Assembly (NCBI GenBank): GCA_947466585.1
Contig: CANIEU010000013.1
Coordinates: 1 to 63,408, forward strand
Source: Fibrobacterota bacterium
Lineage (GTDB): Bacteria; Fibrobacterota; Fibrobacteria; UBA11236
DNA length: 63,408 bases
Direction: 5' to 3'
Positions 9,119 to 16,067 of this stretch are shown here, in pieces (positions within the stretch are counted from its first letter, which is position 1; each line of letters starts with the position of its first letter). The position numbers and the translations under genes are program-made. The notes below the pieces were generated by a model. The model was not told the DNA's origin and ran no database searches. It was given only the letters and a program-made list of their open reading frames with translations.

Positions 9119-9715
9119 ATGACCAAGGGTCGCCTCGAAGCCTTCACCAATGCGGTGATCGCCATCATCATGACCATTATGGTTTTGGAATTAAAGGTGC
9201 CGCACGGAATTTCGCTTCAAGCTCTGCTGCCCTTGATCCCGGTGTTCTTGAGCTATGTGCTCAGCTTCGTCTACCTCGGCATTTACTGGAACAACCACCA
9301 TCACCTGTGGCAGGCGGTGCGCCATGTGAACGGAGTGGTGCTCTGGGCCAACCTGCATCTGCTGTTCTGGCTTTCGCTGATTCCCTTTGCAACCGGTTGG
9401 ATGGGGGAAAACCATTTCGCGGCGCTTCCGGTGGCCTTGTACGGGTTTGTTTTGCTCATGGCCGCTGTGGCCTATTTCGTGATGACGATCGTCCTGGTCC
9501 GCTTGCATGGGAAGGATTCGGTGGTGGCCCGAGCCCTGGCCAGCGTGTTCAAGGAACGGATCTCCACGGTAGCCTATGTGATGGCGATTCCGATAGCGTT
9601 CTTCAACACTTGGATCTCGTGTGGACTGTATCTCATGGTGGCCCTGATTTGGCTCGTGCCCGACCCGCGTTTTGAAAAAGCGGTGATGGTGAAGGAGCAG
9701 GGGACGGAGCAATAG
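9119..9715 (+). CDS. TMEM175-like (DUF1211) potassium channel family protein
   Basis: A 198-residue membrane protein. The first helix carries the family signature R-x-x-A-F-x-[ND]-A (RLEAFTNAVIAIIMTIMVLE), which in characterised TMEM175 proteins forms the K+-selective pore. Five further hydrophobic helices follow, including YLGIYWNNHHHLW, a conserved segment in bacterial members. Bacterial TMEM175 channels are tetramers of single repeats, and the length fits. ATG 9119 is chosen because CAGGAG lies just upstream. The stop TAG opens repeat array C. Confidence 0.85.
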   Translation: MTKGRLEAFTNAVIAIIMTIMVLELKVPHGISLQALLPLIPVFLSYVLSFVYLGIYWNNHHHLWQAVRHVNGVVLWANLHLLFWLSLIPFATGWMGENHFAALPVALYGFVLLMAAVAYFVMTIVLVRLHGKDSVVARALASVFKERISTVAYVMAIPIAFFNTWISCGLYLMVALIWLVPDPRFEKAVMVKEQGTEQ

Positions 9716-9744
9716 AGCAATAGGGCAATAGAGCAATGAGACAA
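9713..9744 (+). repeat. Stop-anchored tandem array C, left arm, 8-bp unit
   Basis: Units TAGAGCAA (9713), TAGGGCAA (9721), TAGAGCAA (9729) and TGAGACAA (9737) are in exact register. The first TAG is the stop codon of the channel gene. An extra copy, GAGCAA, forms its last two codons. Confidence 0.8.
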
Positions 9745-9782
9745 TGGCGCTCAATCTAGAGGCATAGAGGAGTTTTCGAAAC

Positions 9783-9856
9783 TTTATTGTGTTTATTGCT
9801 GTGATGCTGTGTTGTTGTGCTGTCTTTTCGTTCATTGTCCCATTGTCCCATTGTCG
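9783..9856 (+). repeat. Array C, right (inverted) arm, 8-bp unit
   Basis: CATTGTCC, CATTGTCC and CATTGTCG (9833-9856) are the inverted complement of the left-arm unit (GGACAATG on the minus strand). More diverged copies extend leftward to about 9783 (TTATTGTG, TTTATTGC, TGTGATGC and so on). The two arms could pair in RNA across a loop of about 40-90 nt. The SIMPL gene's ribosome binding site follows directly. Confidence 0.6.
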
Positions 9857-9871: not shown

Positions 9872-10600
9872 ATGCAAAACCGCAACCTTATCATCTCGTC
9901 CATTTTCGTCGCCGTGGGCCTGACCCTCGCCGGCTGGTTCGCCGGTCAGGGCGTATTGCGCGCCCGCACGGCCGAGCGCTACGTCACGGTCAAGGGCGTT
10001 GCGGAGCGCCCCGCCCGGGCGGAATTGGCCTTGTGGCCTCTGCGCCTCGCGGTGTCGGAGAACGATCTCGCCCGCGGGCATGCGAAAATGGCCGCCGACG
10101 TGCATCAGATTCGCTTGTTTTTAACGCGTCATGGCATCGATACGGCGGGCATCGCCTTGCAGGATTTCGCCGTGAACGATGCGTTCTCGAACCAATACCA
10201 GACCGATCGCATCGCCAGCCGTTACGTGATTCGTCAAACCGTGATGGTACGCTCCACCGAACCGGAAAAAGTCCTCGCAGCCAGTCAGAGCATCGGCGAA
10301 CTGGTCGAGGTGGGCGTGGTGTTCTCGTCGGGAAACGAGTACGGCGGGGGAGGCCCGACCTTTTTGTTCAAGGGATTGAGCGATTTGAAACCGAAGATGA
10401 TCGCGGAGGCGACCGCCGAAGCACGCGCGGCCGCGGAACAATTCGCCCGCGACTCCAAAAGCCACATTGCCGGTATCCGCCGTGCCAATCAGGGCCTGTT
10501 CGAGATCCGCGCGCGCGACGAGGCCCAAGGTGTCCGCGAAGAGAATCAGATCGATAAGACGGTTCGGGTTGTGACCACGGTGGAGTATTTGCTGAAATGA
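9872..10600 (+). CDS. SIMPL (DUF541) domain periplasmic protein
   Basis: 242 residues with an N-terminal membrane anchor or uncleaved signal (LIISSIFVAVGLTLAGWFAG). A SIMPL/DUF541 domain follows, starting RYVTVKGVAERPARAELALW. Members form multimeric barrel- or channel-like assemblies and are exported; their cellular role is poorly defined, with links to oxidative stress (E. coli YggE). The start at 9872 is supported by CAGGAG at 9861-9866; a longer frame would read through the repeat arm. The stop TGA opens repeat array D. Confidence 0.85.
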   Translation: MQNRNLIISSIFVAVGLTLAGWFAGQGVLRARTAERYVTVKGVAERPARAELALWPLRLAVSENDLARGHAKMAADVHQIRLFLTRHGIDTAGIALQDFAVNDAFSNQYQTDRIASRYVIRQTVMVRSTEPEKVLAASQSIGELVEVGVVFSSGNEYGGGGPTFLFKGLSDLKPKMIAEATAEARAAAEQFARDSKSHIAGIRRANQGLFEIRARDEAQGVREENQIDKTVRVVTTVEYLLK

Positions 10601-10632
10601 GAAATGGGAAATGGGAAATCGGAAACGGGAAA
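10598..10632 (+). repeat. Stop-anchored tandem array D, left arm, 7-bp unit
   Basis: Units TGAGAAA, TGGGAAA, TGGGAAA, TCGGAAA and CGGGAAA run from 10598 in strict 7-bp register. The first TGA is the stop codon of the SIMPL-domain gene. Confidence 0.8.
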
Positions 10633-10674
10633 GATTGAAATCAGGGATTTAAAATCGATTTTGGGATTCGTTAT

Positions 10675-10695
10675 TTTCTCATTTCTCATTGTTGA
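10675..10695 (-). repeat. Array D, right (inverted) arm
   Basis: TTTCTCA at 10675-10681 and at 10682-10688, then a diverged TTGTTGA, are inverted copies of TGAGAAA. On the minus strand they come just downstream of the acylphosphatase stop, so both convergent genes are followed by the same stop-bearing unit. Confidence 0.7.
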
Positions 10696-11015: not shown

Positions 11016-11057
11016 CGTACTCGATGTGTTCGTTTCAAATCCCTGTTTTCGAGTACG
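11016..11057 (-). other. Inverted repeat between gpsA and acylphosphatase
   Basis: CGTACTCGA (11016-11024) and TCGAGTACG (11049-11057) are a perfect 9-bp inverted repeat with a 24-nt loop. There is no T-run on the minus strand, so it is a possible RNA processing hairpin rather than an intrinsic terminator. Confidence 0.45.
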
Positions 11058-11090: not shown

Positions 11091-12122
11091 CTTCCCCGCG
11101 AACTCAACATCTTCCATCTGCGGTTCGCTCATCAGGCCGCCAACAACTTCGCGCACCGGGCGTCCTTCAAAGAGCAAGGTATGTAGGCCTTCTAGAATGC
11201 GCATGCGGATGCTCATATCGGCCAAGCGTCCGTATACAGTCCGCACGGTATGGACGCCTTCCGCGACCTCGCCGATTTCTTTAACGGCCTGGTCGAGCGT
11301 TTTGCCCTGACCGATGAGGCGACCCACGCGGAAGTTGCGGCTTTGCGGCGAGGTACAGGTGGTGATGAGATCGCCCACCCCTGCGAGGCCGAGGAAGGTC
11401 AGCGGGTCCGCGCCCGACTTCACCGCGAAGCGGCTCATTTCGGCGAGGGCGCGCGTGAGGATCAAACCGCGGGCGTTGTCACCCAGTTCGAGTGCATCGG
11501 CGAGGCCGGTGGCGATGGCATAGACGTTCTTAAGCACGCCGCCCAGCTCCACGCCGCGCACGTCGGGATTGCTGTACACACGGAAATAAGGGCACGACAA
11601 CCATTCCTGCACGATCGCCACCAAGCCGGCATCGGAGCTGGCGATCACGGTGCCGCTGAGTTTGTGGGCCGCGATTTCCTTCGCGAGGTTGGGGCCGCTG
11701 AGGGCGCCGATGCGCGTGCAGGGGGTTTCCTCCCCGAGGATTTCCGTCATCAGTTTGAAGGTGCCGGTCTCAATACCCTTGGTGGTGCTGACGAGCATCT
11801 GTTCCGCATTCAGTGCGGGGGCCATGGCACGGACGGTTTCGCGGAACCAGGGGCTCGGTACGCACACCAAAACGAGCGTGGCGCCGTGCACCGCTTCTGC
11901 CAGATCGGCGGTGGCGGTGATGTTGGCGCTCAAGGTGATACCGGGCAGGTATTTGGCATTGATGTGTGAAGCGTTGAATGCCGCCGCAGCTTCGGCGGTG
12001 CGGAACTGGAGCGCTACGCGGTGTCCGTTGTGCCCGAGAATATCGGCCAGGGCGCTGCCGAAGCTGCCACCCCCGATCACCGCCACCTTGGCGGACTTTT
12101 CCGTCGATCCCGATGTGTTCAT
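11088..12122 (-). CDS. gpsA: Glycerol-3-phosphate dehydrogenase [NAD(P)+]
   Basis: 344 residues. It reduces dihydroxyacetone phosphate to sn-glycerol 3-phosphate, the first step towards phospholipid head-group backbones. The NAD-binding Rossmann motif is VIGGGSFGSALADIL near residue 15. The catalytic Lys lies in LGGVLKNVYAIATGLADAL, and the substrate-binding GLAGVGDLITTC is near residue 255. ATG 12122 overlaps the stop of the HAD gene by 4 nt (ATGA), and AAGGA precedes it, so the two genes are translationally coupled. Confidence 0.95.
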   Translation of the reverse strand: MNTSGSTEKSAKVAVIGGGSFGSALADILGHNGHRVALQFRTAEAAAAFNASHINAKYLPGITLSANITATADLAEAVHGATLVLVCVPSPWFRETVRAMAPALNAEQMLVSTTKGIETGTFKLMTEILGEETPCTRIGALSGPNLAKEIAAHKLSGTVIASSDAGLVAIVQEWLSCPYFRVYSNPDVRGVELGGVLKNVYAIATGLADALELGDNARGLILTRALAEMSRFAVKSGADPLTFLGLAGVGDLITTCTSPQSRNFRVGRLIGQGKTLDQAVKEIGEVAEGVHTVRTVYGRLADMSIRMRILEGLHTLLFEGRPVREVVGGLMSEPQMEDVEFAGK

Positions 12123-12859
12123 GAGGATTCCTTGCTCCCTTCCTTATTCCAAAGTGCGGCCACTTCGGCCACGGTGAGTTCGTCCAGGCGCGACACGATG
12201 CGGTGGGGACCGGGTTTTCCCGGAGCGGCCGCGAGCATCTCTCGCGGGTGTGTACCGGCCACCCCGATGACACGCATGCCTGCAAGGAGTCCCGCCTCGA
12301 TGCCGACCGGAGCGTCCTCGAACACCACACAACGTGCGGGTTCGATTCCGGTTTTCTTCGAGGCTTTCAAGAACACATCCGGCTCGGGTTTGCCCCTGTT
12401 CACGTCCTCAGCGGTCACGATGCCTTGAAAGAAGTGCGTGAACCCGAAGGCCTTGAGGCACGTGTCGATGTTCTCGCGATGGGTCGAGGACCCGATTGCG
12501 CAGGGGATGCCGGCGGCCTGCAGGCGTTCGAGCCAGGTGCGCACGCCGGGCAGCGGCTCGATTCCTTCGGCGCGGATGATGTCACGGTACAGTTCTTCTT
12601 TGCGTAACGACAGGCGGCGGATTTCGGCGGGATCGTGCGTCCACCCGAGAATATTGGGCAGGATCGCCTCGTTCTTCATGCCGAAGCTGCGTTTGAAGTG
12701 GCCTTCGGGCAAGACGCGGCCGGTTTCTGCGGCAAGCATTTCCCAGCTGCGCTCATGCTGCGACGAGGAATCGAGCACCACGCCGTCCCAATCGAATAAT
12801 GCTGCGAATGGCGCCGCAAATGCAGGAAACAATCCCTGTTCAAAAAGCGAATCGTACAT
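12119..12859 (-). CDS. HAD-superfamily phosphatase, beta-phosphoglucomutase-like
   Basis: 246 residues, HAD subfamily I. Motif I is LFDWDGVVLDSS (nucleophile Asp and acid/base Asp). Motif II is AIGSSTHRENI, motif III is RGKPEPDVFL, and motif IV is VVFEDAPVGIEAG. The helical cap domain occupies about residues 25-100. Members dephosphorylate or isomerise sugar phosphates. As it is coupled to gpsA, a glycerol- or sugar-phosphate substrate is a reasonable but unproven guess. The start is taken at ATG 12859; the longer frame to 12955 would translate a 9-bp repeat as ATP-ATP-AT and is unlikely. Confidence 0.85.
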   Translation of the reverse strand: MYDSLFEQGLFPAFAAPFAALFDWDGVVLDSSSQHERSWEMLAAETGRVLPEGHFKRSFGMKNEAILPNILGWTHDPAEIRRLSLRKEELYRDIIRAEGIEPLPGVRTWLERLQAAGIPCAIGSSTHRENIDTCLKAFGFTHFFQGIVTAEDVNRGKPEPDVFLKASKKTGIEPARCVVFEDAPVGIEAGLLAGMRVIGVAGTHPREMLAAAPGKPGPHRIVSRLDELTVAEVAALWNKEGSKESS

Positions 12860-12869
12860 GGCATCAAAA

Positions 12870-12896
12870 GTAGCAGGGGTAGCAGGGGTAGCGGGG
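12870..12896 (+). repeat. Three-copy 9-bp tandem repeat upstream of the HAD gene
   Basis: GTAGCAGGG, GTAGCAGGG and GTAGCGGGG are in exact register, in the divergent promoter region of the HAD and transglycosylase genes. Units contain TAG on the plus strand, but I find no gene that ends there. Confidence 0.7.
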
Positions 12897-12972
12897 AATT
12901 CGGCGATACGGATTCCGCATTCCTGGGCTGAAATCCGGATGGGAACGCTCCGCAATTCGTAATTTGGCTCGC

Positions 12973-15222
12973 ATGTCCCTTGTCCACCCCTTCCGATGGA
13001 TGCGCTGCACCCTGTTCACCGCTGCGTCCACTCACCTTTTCGTTGCCTTGATGGCCCTGGTCTTCGTTCTCGATACGGGAACTGCCGAGGCGCGGAAATC
13101 CCTCAAGGGAAACAAGGGTGGGGCGAAGCCGGTTTTTACGACGTTGCAACTTCCGCCGTCGCCTCACGCGTTGCGCGCCTACAATCAGGCATGGGAGCTT
13201 AGCCTCAAAGAGTATCGTCAGGGCGAGAACGCGAAGGCCGCGGTCGACTTCGAGGCGATCGAGGGGGGCGATTCCCTGTCGACCTTCTACCGTTCGGTTC
13301 TCTTGGCGCAGACTAGGCTGCGTGCGCGGGACACCGCCCGCGCCGATGCCCTGCTCGCAGCCCTGCAATCAGGGCGCGCGCTCGATCCGGTTTGGCAAAG
13401 ATCCTTGCACCGGTTGCGTTTGCAGACCTTCGTGATTCTGCCGCCCACGGCGCAACGCGAATATCTGTTGAATGCCGCCCGCGCCCCGCTCGACAACAAT
13501 GACAAGGCCGATGCGTTTTACCGGCTGCTTGCACTCGACACGCCGATCGTCGCACGAAGCGAACGCATCGGGTACGCGCGTCAGTTGGTCCCATTGGCCT
13601 TGCCCGGGCCGCGCCTTGATCGGGAATACCGGCGCTGGATCGCGACGCTCGATGCGGCGGACTCCACACGGGAGTCCCAGCGCCTGCTGCTCGATTGGGA
13701 AGAAAAGCTCGGATTGTGGACCGAAGCCATCGCCCGTGCGGAGGCATTGGCGAGCCGGGATACGGCCGCGGAGGGGGTGCGCGGACTTCGTGCTAGAATT
13801 GCGCAAGCGTATTACAATAAAGGAAGTTACGGAGAATCGATCCAGCAATACACGCAGATGTTGAACCGGGTCGGAGAGTCCCCGGAAATTCTCATCCAGC
13901 TGGCGCGCGCGCATCGCTCCCTCTCCCAAGAAGTGCCGGCCCAAGCCTGGTATTCCCGTCTGGTGGAGCGCTTTCCCAACGATGGCCGGTCCGCCGAAAC
14001 GCTCTGGATGCGCGCCTTCGATGCCGAGATGCTCGGCAATGCCGATACCGCGCTGGCCTTGTATGCCCGCATCGCCTCGGAGTTTCCCTTGCATACGCGT
14101 GGGAACGAGGCGCTGTTTCGCACCGGGTTGATGCTCTACCGCCGCGCCGATTATGCCGGAGCACAGCGCGCCTTTGCCGAACTGCATCAAGGGCGCATCA
14201 ATCCGGGATTGGGAGGCGGCGCCCCCGGACGTTTGCGCGGCGCGGCGCGCTATTGGGAAGGCAAGGCGCTCGCCGCCGATTCGGATACGGTCGGCTCTCG
14301 TGCCACGTGGATTGCCTTGGCGCGGGAATACCCCTTCGGGCATTACGGGCACATGGCCCGGCAGGAACTCGTGCGGCGCAACGCGTTGCCCGACTCTTTG
14401 GAGTGGCGCCGACTGTTGAACCCCGCCTCCGGCGAGGCGATCCGATCGTGGTTCGGAGACTCCTCCGTCTCCGGTTCAACCCCGGCCATCGCCACCACCC
14501 TTTTTGCCGGCGAGAGCCAATGGATGCCGATCGCACGCCTGTTCGAGTTGCAACTTGACTCCTTGGCCGTGCTCACCTTGCAGGCCCGGGCCAACTCCCA
14601 GCCCACCAATCTCTGGTTGCTTTACGATGCGGCCGTGCGTTGCCGCAATGCTGGATTTGGCTATGAGGCCTACCGGTTCGCCGTGCGTCTTTCCGAAAAA
14701 CTTCCCGTCGAGCGCTGGCCCCGGGCACCCGTCGAAGTGCTGCGTTTGTTCTATCCACCTTCGTATGCCGAACTCGTGCGCCCCGAAGCGGCGCGCGCCG
14801 GCATGCCCCCCGGACTCGCCTTGGCACTCATCAAACAGGAGAGCGGCTTCGATCCGGGGGCGGTGTCGCGCGTCGGCGCGCGCGGGCTGATGCAACTCAT
14901 GCCGCAGACCGGCACCGAGCAGGCGCGGAAGGAGGGCTTGAAAGGATTCCACCCCGACTCGCTGTTCGTGCCGGCCGTCAACATCCGTCTCGGGGTGGCC
15001 TACCTCCGGGACGTGCTCCGCCGCAATCACGGCAGCATCGAATTCGCGCTCGCGCAATACAATGCCGGGCCCACGGCGCTCGATCGTTGGATGCCGCGGC
15101 TCGAGGGGCGTCCACCCGAAGAGGCGGTGGAGGATATCGGGTTCGCAGAAACCCGGGAATACGTGAAACGTGTTTCTGCTAACTGGCGGACTTATCAGGT
15201 GTTGTGGGGCGAAGGCGAATGA
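12973..15222 (+). CDS. Soluble lytic murein transglycosylase (Slt family)
   Basis: About 749 residues, exported to the periplasm, where it cleaves peptidoglycan to 1,6-anhydro products. The signal peptide contains HLFVALMALVFVLDTGTAEA. A long alpha-helical TPR-like superhelix follows (for example AQAYYNKGSYGESIQQYTQM). The C-terminal SLT domain has its catalytic Glu623 in LIKQESGFDPGA, followed by VGARGLMQLMPQT and ALAQYNAGP. The layout matches E. coli Slt70 but is longer. The start could be TTG 12964 or ATG 12973; neither has a clear ribosome binding site. The stop TGA opens repeat array G. Confidence 0.9.
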   Translation: MSLVHPFRWMRCTLFTAASTHLFVALMALVFVLDTGTAEARKSLKGNKGGAKPVFTTLQLPPSPHALRAYNQAWELSLKEYRQGENAKAAVDFEAIEGGDSLSTFYRSVLLAQTRLRARDTARADALLAALQSGRALDPVWQRSLHRLRLQTFVILPPTAQREYLLNAARAPLDNNDKADAFYRLLALDTPIVARSERIGYARQLVPLALPGPRLDREYRRWIATLDAADSTRESQRLLLDWEEKLGLWTEAIARAEALASRDTAAEGVRGLRARIAQAYYNKGSYGESIQQYTQMLNRVGESPEILIQLARAHRSLSQEVPAQAWYSRLVERFPNDGRSAETLWMRAFDAEMLGNADTALALYARIASEFPLHTRGNEALFRTGLMLYRRADYAGAQRAFAELHQGRINPGLGGGAPGRLRGAARYWEGKALAADSDTVGSRATWIALAREYPFGHYGHMARQELVRRNALPDSLEWRRLLNPASGEAIRSWFGDSSVSGSTPAIATTLFAGESQWMPIARLFELQLDSLAVLTLQARANSQPTNLWLLYDAAVRCRNAGFGYEAYRFAVRLSEKLPVERWPRAPVEVLRLFYPPSYAELVRPEAARAGMPPGLALALIKQESGFDPGAVSRVGARGLMQLMPQTGTEQARKEGLKGFHPDSLFVPAVNIRLGVAYLRDVLRRNHGSIEFALAQYNAGPTALDRWMPRLEGRPPEEAVEDIGFAETREYVKRVSANWRTYQVLWGEGE

Positions 15223-15254
15223 GAAGTGAGAAATGAGAAATGAGAAATGAGAAA
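15220..15254 (+). repeat. Stop-anchored tandem array G, left arm, 7-bp unit, five copies
   Basis: TGAGAAG followed by four copies of TGAGAAA runs from 15220. The first TGA is the stop codon of the transglycosylase. Bases 15221-15248 are an exact inverted match to 15359-15386. Confidence 0.9.
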
Positions 15255-15311
15255 ATCCATCTTGTCGGCATGCGTTTGGGGGAACTTGATCGTCCCGGGA
15301 CGGGGCAATTG

Positions 15312-16067
15312 ATGCATCCGGTTCTGAAACTCAGGTTTCCCATTTGTTTCTGGAGTTTATTTCTCATTTCTCATTTCTCACTTCTCATTCTCGCATCGCT
15401 CTTTCTCAGCGTTCCGGCATTCGCGGCTCCATCCTCCGTTACCATATCCTCCGGCTCCTCTCCCTGCTTTCCCCTGGCGCGCCTCAAGTATTCCGGTGGG
15501 GGAGACTGGTACACCGGACCCAGCATGCTTCCGAACCTAGCCAAGCGTTTGCGCGCCGACCTCGGGATGAACGTATGCCCGGCCGAGCGAGTGGTGGAAC
15601 CGTTGTCGGGGTCCTTGTTCGAAACACCCGTGCTCTTCATGACCGGCCACGGTCGCGTGTCCTTCAGCGAAGAGGAGCGCGTCGCCCTCCGGGACTATCT
15701 CGCGCGCGGCGGCCTGCTTTTTGCCGACGACAACTACGGCCTCGCCGAATCCTTCCGCGCCGAAATGGACACGCTCTTCCCGCGTCATCCGCTGCGCCCG
15801 TTGCCCTCCGGGCATCCCGTGTTCTGCAGCCACTACCGTTTCCCCGCCGGGCTTCCCAAAATCCACCAGCACGACGGCAAGCCCGCCACCGCCTACGGCA
15901 TCGAACTGGACGGCCGCATCGCCGTGCTTTTCACATACGAATCCGACCTCGGCAACGGTTGGGAAGATGCCGAGGTACACGGCGACCCGCCTGCGCTTCA
16001 TGAATCCGCCCTGCGAATGGGCGTGAACATCTTCTCCTGGTTCTTCGAAGGGGCCAGAGCTCGATGA
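15312..16067 (+). CDS. DUF4159 domain protein, exported
   Basis: About 251 residues. A signal peptide (start MHPVLKLRF, core LISHFSLLILASLFLSVPAF, then AAPSS) is followed by a DUF4159 domain: DWYTGPSMLPNLAKRLRADL, VLFMTGHGRVSFSEEE, LRDYLARGGLLFADDN and a C-terminal GVNIFSWFFEGA. DUF4159 has a class I glutamine-amidotransferase-like fold and is usually found near von Willebrand A / MoxR (aerotolerance) clusters; its function is unknown. The start at 15312 is chosen because it gives a proper signal peptide. Longer starts in the loop or left repeat arm are possible. It overlaps the next gene by 4 nt (ATGA). Confidence 0.8.
   Translation: MHPVLKLRFPICFWSLFLISHFSLLILASLFLSVPAFAAPSSVTISSGSSPCFPLARLKYSGGGDWYTGPSMLPNLAKRLRADLGMNVCPAERVVEPLSGSLFETPVLFMTGHGRVSFSEEERVALRDYLARGGLLFADDNYGLAESFRAEMDTLFPRHPLRPLPSGHPVFCSHYRFPAGLPKIHQHDGKPATAYGIELDGRIAVLFTYESDLGNGWEDAEVHGDPPALHESALRMGVNIFSWFFEGARAR
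15359..15386 (+). repeat. Array G, right (inverted) arm, perfect 28-nt complement
   Basis: ATTTCTC three times and then ACTTCTC is the exact reverse complement of 15221-15248, across a 110-nt loop. In the frame of the downstream gene it encodes LISHFSLLI, the hydrophobic core of the signal peptide. Confidence 0.9.

Follow-up and report, generated by a model that had tools for sequence, protein, structure and literature searches.

Two short tandem arrays that are reverse complements of each other lie between a lytic transglycosylase gene and a DUF4159 gene of a Fibrobacterota bacterium. A reading of this junction from its letters alone proposed a locus-specific hairpin, which would hide or cut the leader of the downstream gene. 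Is the repeat such a dedicated switch, or one case of something wider? Our analysis places it in the second group: the repeat at 15217–15390 is not a one-off and belongs to many opposed-array pairs between genes of this genome.

The inverted repeat at the transglycosylase–DUF4159 junction

In the window, by which we mean the whole stretch of 63,408 nucleotides analysed, positions 15217–15248 and 15359–15390 are exact reverse complements over 32 nt, with 110 nt between them. The perfect 28-nt inverted repeat claimed earlier is thus real, and its length was conservative. Its 7-bp units are likewise confirmed, as the arms are built of TGAGAAR heptamers. A search for (TGAGAAA)3 with at most three mismatches returned seven matches in the window, against 0.01 expected. 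The features of this junction, and of a second heptamer pair in the same window, are listed below.

12964–15222, plus strand: lytic transglycosylase with an SLT domain (PF01464)
15217–15254, plus strand: left arm, purine-rich, five TGAGAAR heptamers; 15217–15248 pairs exactly with the right arm
15220–15222, plus strand: stop codon TGA of the transglycosylase, supplied by the array
15249–15358, no strand: spacer of 110 nt between the pairing arms, not common to other pairs
15312–16067, plus strand: DUF4159 protein (PF13709), favoured start 15312, with in-frame ATG also at 15240 and 15270
15359–15390, minus strand: right arm, pyrimidine-rich on the plus strand, exact reverse complement of 15217–15248
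10594–10632, plus strand: left arm of the second, degenerate heptamer pair, holding the stop of the SIMPL-domain gene (10598–10600)
10675–10690, minus strand: right arm of the second pair, adjoining the 3' end of the minus-strand acylphosphatase gene

Both arms touch a coding sequence. The stop codon of the transglycosylase is the first TGA of the left array; the sequence-only reading had the left arm begin on this stop. The right arm reads FLISHFSLLIL in the frame of the DUF4159 gene, containing the LISHFSLLI of the sequence-only reading. With the start at 15312, the leader would be MHPVLKLRFPICFWSLFLISHFSLLILASLFLSVPAFA/APSS, a start choice and cleavage site that we infer. Starts in this frame lie 151, 121, 115, 82 and 79 nt before the arm end and the next lies 134 nt after it; in-frame ATG, GTG or TTG codons are thus confined to positions at least 47 nt before the arm or at least 134 nt past its end. 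The latter start falls past the conserved CFPLARLKY, where the conserved domain has already begun. As canonical starts are missing between the arm and this domain, translation of the leader must run through the right arm in frame, and the arm now codes part of the hydrophobic core.

At the RNA level, the locus folds better than 200 of 200 dinucleotide-preserving shuffles (z = −7.0), and a transcript of 15217–15390 is predicted to form a stem of about 32 bp. The locus showed no promoter- or terminator-like site, and the interval 15100–15500 holds no intrinsic terminator, that is, no short G+C-rich hairpin followed by a T-run. Rfam gave no match above threshold at the locus. At other pairs, Rfam returned weak, sub-threshold matches to microRNA precursors, which we take as chance hairpin matches.

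Heptamer arrays across the genome

The exact pattern (TGAGAAR)3 occurs 18 times across the 2.24-Mb genome, and its reversed control has zero matches. At most of these sites, a purine-rich array is followed by a unique spacer and then by a reverse-complement array. A de novo survey of 802 kb, or 36% of the genome, revealed 52 inverted repeats versus 3 in a Markov control. Period-7 pairs whose loops span tens of nucleotides make up most of the 52. By a strict count, this sample holds 98 period-7 arrays (122 per Mb) versus 0 in the Markov control. Counted by score, there are 121 arrays in the 802 kb, of which 114 are intergenic, and Markov controls give zero to four.

At least six unit families can be distinguished: AATGAGA, GGTAGAC/GGTAGTA, GAAATNN, CAATGNN, ACAGCNN and TAGTGNN. 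Four or five units make up 73 of 93 arrays, and only seven arrays have three. Identical arm stretches of up to 38 nt recur at different loci, so the arms, unlike the spacers, are dispersed copies. Counting of 6-mers gave no shared spacer motif, the top 6-mers lying within the shuffle range, and by inspection the spacers differ.

Adjacent arrays within 220 nt of each other form 37 convergent purine-pyrimidine pairs with spacers of 17–126 nt, and the reverse, pyrimidine-purine arrangement does not occur among them. In 36 of the 37 pairs both arms come from the same family, versus a permutation mean of 8.6 and a maximum of 20. Purine-rich arrays are the ones nearer to the left gene (50 versus 4), and pyrimidine-rich arrays those nearer to the right gene (46 versus 8). 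This polarity is the same between co-directional, convergent and divergent genes, and the arrays usually lie some 20 nt or less from the gene edge as placed by a home-made gene caller, whose start positions are approximate.

We then compare the two arms of a pair. The rare unit GAAGTGAG is found in both arms of the 15217–15390 repeat and in one other array, and the rare unit GAATTGAG is confined to the two arms of one other pair. In family F1, an arm resembles its own partner more closely than it does the other arms of the family (p = 0.001); the same excess, tested in F2, F3 and F6, is not significant. Copying between arms is thus supported for F1 only. At the inner edge of the arms, AACG lies 1–2 nt inside at 15 of 93 junctions, where about 1 is expected from the deeper rate, and this holds in several families. 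One example with AACG(C) directly inside the array edge is seen at locus L022, 1536–1540.

Other short repeats are present as well. At 9707–9745 and 9797–9855 of the window, arrays of 8-bp units (GAGCAATA... and ...CATTGTCC) flank the gap before the SIMPL gene; the first contains the TAG stop of the upstream gene (9713–9715), and the layout is that of the heptamer pairs with a different unit length. An imperfect inverted 18-mer, GAAATCAGGGATTTAAAA, locates at 10637–10654 and 11033–11050, in both gaps around the acylphosphatase gene. A 9-bp tandem array, (GTAGCAGGG)3, occupies 12870–12896 near the 5' end of the minus-strand gene 12119–12955. In G080, a genome of the same phylum, a direct array of about 200 nt (L139, 1447–1640) is composed of GAAGTGT, GAAGAGA and GAAGTGA heptamers, so that a further member of the phylum carries heptamer arrays of its own.

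Gain of the arms and their effects on gene ends

Comparing the junction with its counterparts in two genomes of the same genus, G002 and G003, revealed the same transglycosylase–DUF4159 gene order, no arms, and leaders in unrelated codons. The distance between conserved residues of the two proteins is 269 nt here, 146 nt in G003 and 101 nt in G002. The sequence-only reading held that the repeat either was inserted into a signal sequence or supplied its hydrophobic core. Our comparison upholds a gain at the junction and does not support the creation of a signal peptide, since the relatives already carry a leader there. Relatives with a leader in unrelated codons and no arms had been named as what would speak against the earlier proposal, and G002 and G003 are exactly so. 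The pre-existing leader suggests that the arm replaced or extended it.

Beyond this locus, F1 and F2 arms are absent from the same-genus genomes G001–G003. The strict count, which gave 98 arrays in 802 kb here, gives 3 in 1.2 Mb of G001. At 12 paired loci with a syntenic counterpart in G001, the gap is larger here by a median of 105 nt, compared with 51 nt where no array is present (p = 0.013). Same-genus intergenic gaps are too diverged to align. Some G001 gaps syntenic to paired junctions measure only 5–9 nt. Judged from the arm-less relatives and their shorter gaps, the arms are gains of this lineage, and the spacer was probably gained too.

The arrays also reach into the genes beside them. 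A sense purine array lies no more than 60 nt from 52 gene 3' ends, and in 26 of these cases it contains the gene's stop codon, that of the transglycosylase included. The earlier label of stop arrays fits well: all three frames are closed on the purine strand in 66 of 97 arrays, and no frame is closed on the pyrimidine strand, likewise in 66 of 97. In tandem random heptamers matched for composition these shares are 49% and 84%, respectively, so the stop content of the arrays is only partly above what composition provides.

For a DacB-like gene on contig C10, one start precedes the array end by 92 nt and the next follows it by 91 nt. Barring a non-canonical start, the reading frames indicate that the array must be translated in both the DUF4159 and the DacB-like leaders. 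Two further leaders, at C5:120977 and C5:125494, likely read an array as well, where a downstream GTG would allow otherwise. We notice that a heptamer array also underlies the DacB-like leader, MFPLLIERRTTKSLTPVAILFSLLISHFSFLQSTAFSA, where no left arm is present (L025, 1721–1812; C10, 40020–40111).

Origin of the arrays and related repeat systems

The closest description is that of the GGGAATC repeats of Xanthomonas and the GGGGA(C/T)T repeats of Nostoc, heptamers with fixed and variable unit positions (Rehm et al., 2015, PMC4692102). In Xanthomonas, 89–93% are intergenic, 70 and 75 convergent pairs occur per genome, and the repeats lie near the 5' neighbouring ORF whatever its direction, with the fewest between divergent ORFs. 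Most have four units, a preference read as a sign of quadruplex formation (PMC4692102). The arrays described here share the tandem heptamers, about four units, the fixed and variable positions, the intergenic placement, the scarcity between divergent ORFs, and the convergent pairs with polarity towards the gap in all gene orientations. Unlike them, units such as TGAGAAA, GGTAGAC, GAAATCA and ACAGCGG have no regular GGG tracts, several families coexist in one genome, and the arms supply stops and parts of leaders. Our arrays thus have the same layout without being a member of the quadruplex family, and without G-tracts the preference for unit number here is not due to quadruplexes.

Two other systems are less alike. 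The TAACTGA repeats of Beggiatoaceae are direct arrays of one unit, mostly in 2–4 copies, which precede start codons, only one case being inverted (MacGregor, 2015, PMC4679880). They resemble the present arrays as intergenic heptamer arrays with related split units that adjoin or overlap gene ends, whereas ours form convergent pairs and comprise several unit families. Borg tandem repeats are perfect, direct and extrachromosomal, of various unit lengths, with coding units divisible by three (PMC9879509). They too are fast-evolving, recently formed, partly at gene ends and partly translated, in contrast to which the present arrays keep a period of 7 and are paired in inverted orientation.

We favour, with a probability of roughly 60%, a dispersed junction repeat specific to this lineage. 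It builds on the observed number, polarity and same-family pairing of the arrays, their absence from the genus, the longer gaps, the supply of stops and the in-frame arm in two leaders. A pair would consist of two arrays of about four heptamers from one family, convergent around a unique spacer of 17–126 nt; in each array the purine-rich strand would run from the gene edge towards the gap. The arms may arise as inverted copies of each other, fold-back template switching being one conceivable route; heptamer slippage may alter them, and they may spread from one gene junction to another. Coding neighbours may then filter orientation, since a strand with stops terminates the gene upstream and a strand free of stops can be read through into the gene downstream. 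Some observations count against this explanation. Matching to the own partner is not significant in F2, F3 and F6, the explanation does not account for the AACG junction motif, and the Xanthomonas GGGAATC unit, with no stop on either strand, has the same polarity, which an orientation filter does not obviously explain. As for an enzyme of spread, neither a Y1/RAYT transposase (PF01797, searched in G000–G003 and found in 5 control genomes) nor a reverse transcriptase was found.

The alternative nearest to the original proposal is an element that works as RNA, in which RNA copied from either strand would form a stem-loop with the purine arm first; this structure would be cleaved, or would shield neighbouring messages or keep them apart. 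The strong predicted fold at our locus agrees with it, and since an inverted repeat reads identically whichever way it is transcribed, it would suit genes in any orientation. However, stem mismatches at co-directional loci comprise 9 G-U and 12 A-C on the transcript strand, own-arm matching appears in only one of the four families tested, and no Rfam family covers the locus. The occurrence of the same opposed pairs between co-directional, convergent and divergent genes, the lack of G-U bias and the lack of a promoter- or terminator-like site also tell against a hairpin specific to this leader. We consider an RNA element unlikely; the missing G-U excess and the constant layout between convergent and divergent genes favour the dispersed junction repeat. 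A regulatory or RNase III role for the hairpin is unsupported, and the hairpin at 15217–15390 is probably a by-product rather than a dedicated switch.

Arrays that bind a protein or adopt a DNA structure could instead mark gene borders, which would suit their position a few nucleotides from the gene edge in all orientations, the strong peak at 4–5 units and the excess of AACG. Yet at least six unrelated unit families would each need binding partners, and same-genus genomes do without arrays, so that we regard border marks as quite improbable. REPs are palindromes with an unpaired tag, many of them linked to RAYT transposases (Di Nocera et al., 2013, PMC3733652). A transposable repeat of the REP/BIME or MITE kind would account for dispersed extragenic copies, often opposed and able to form larger structures, and family F2 carries a GTAG core. 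It is nonetheless very unlikely: a single arm is a direct array without palindrome or GTAG/CGTC tag, pairing needs a partner 17–126 nt away, the transposase is absent from G000–G003, and the differing spacers offer no interior shared between terminal inverted repeats as in a MITE. An origin by chance is ruled out by the Markov and shuffle controls. The genome is a draft of 28 contigs, and the start of C1 and the end of C6 fall in or near F2 arrays, but arrays lie inside contigs and adjoin intact genes, leaving artefact or chance a negligible probability.

Whatever function the arrays may have, we infer it. Since G-tract-less arrays here show much the same unit number, polarity and pairing, a cause common to them and the Xanthomonas repeats is probably not the quadruplex. 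A tentative extension, which we hold as possible without expecting it, is a general bacterial class: convergent heptamer-array pairs would be a gene-junction element independent of unit sequence and quadruplex, produced by a process that copies both arms at once, with GAACGC at the inner edge, and donating stops and signal-peptide cores. In the present genome, an array provides the stop at half of the 3' ends that adjoin one, and the leaders of at least two genes include a translated arm. Short repeats gained at junctions can thus rewrite the ends of genes.
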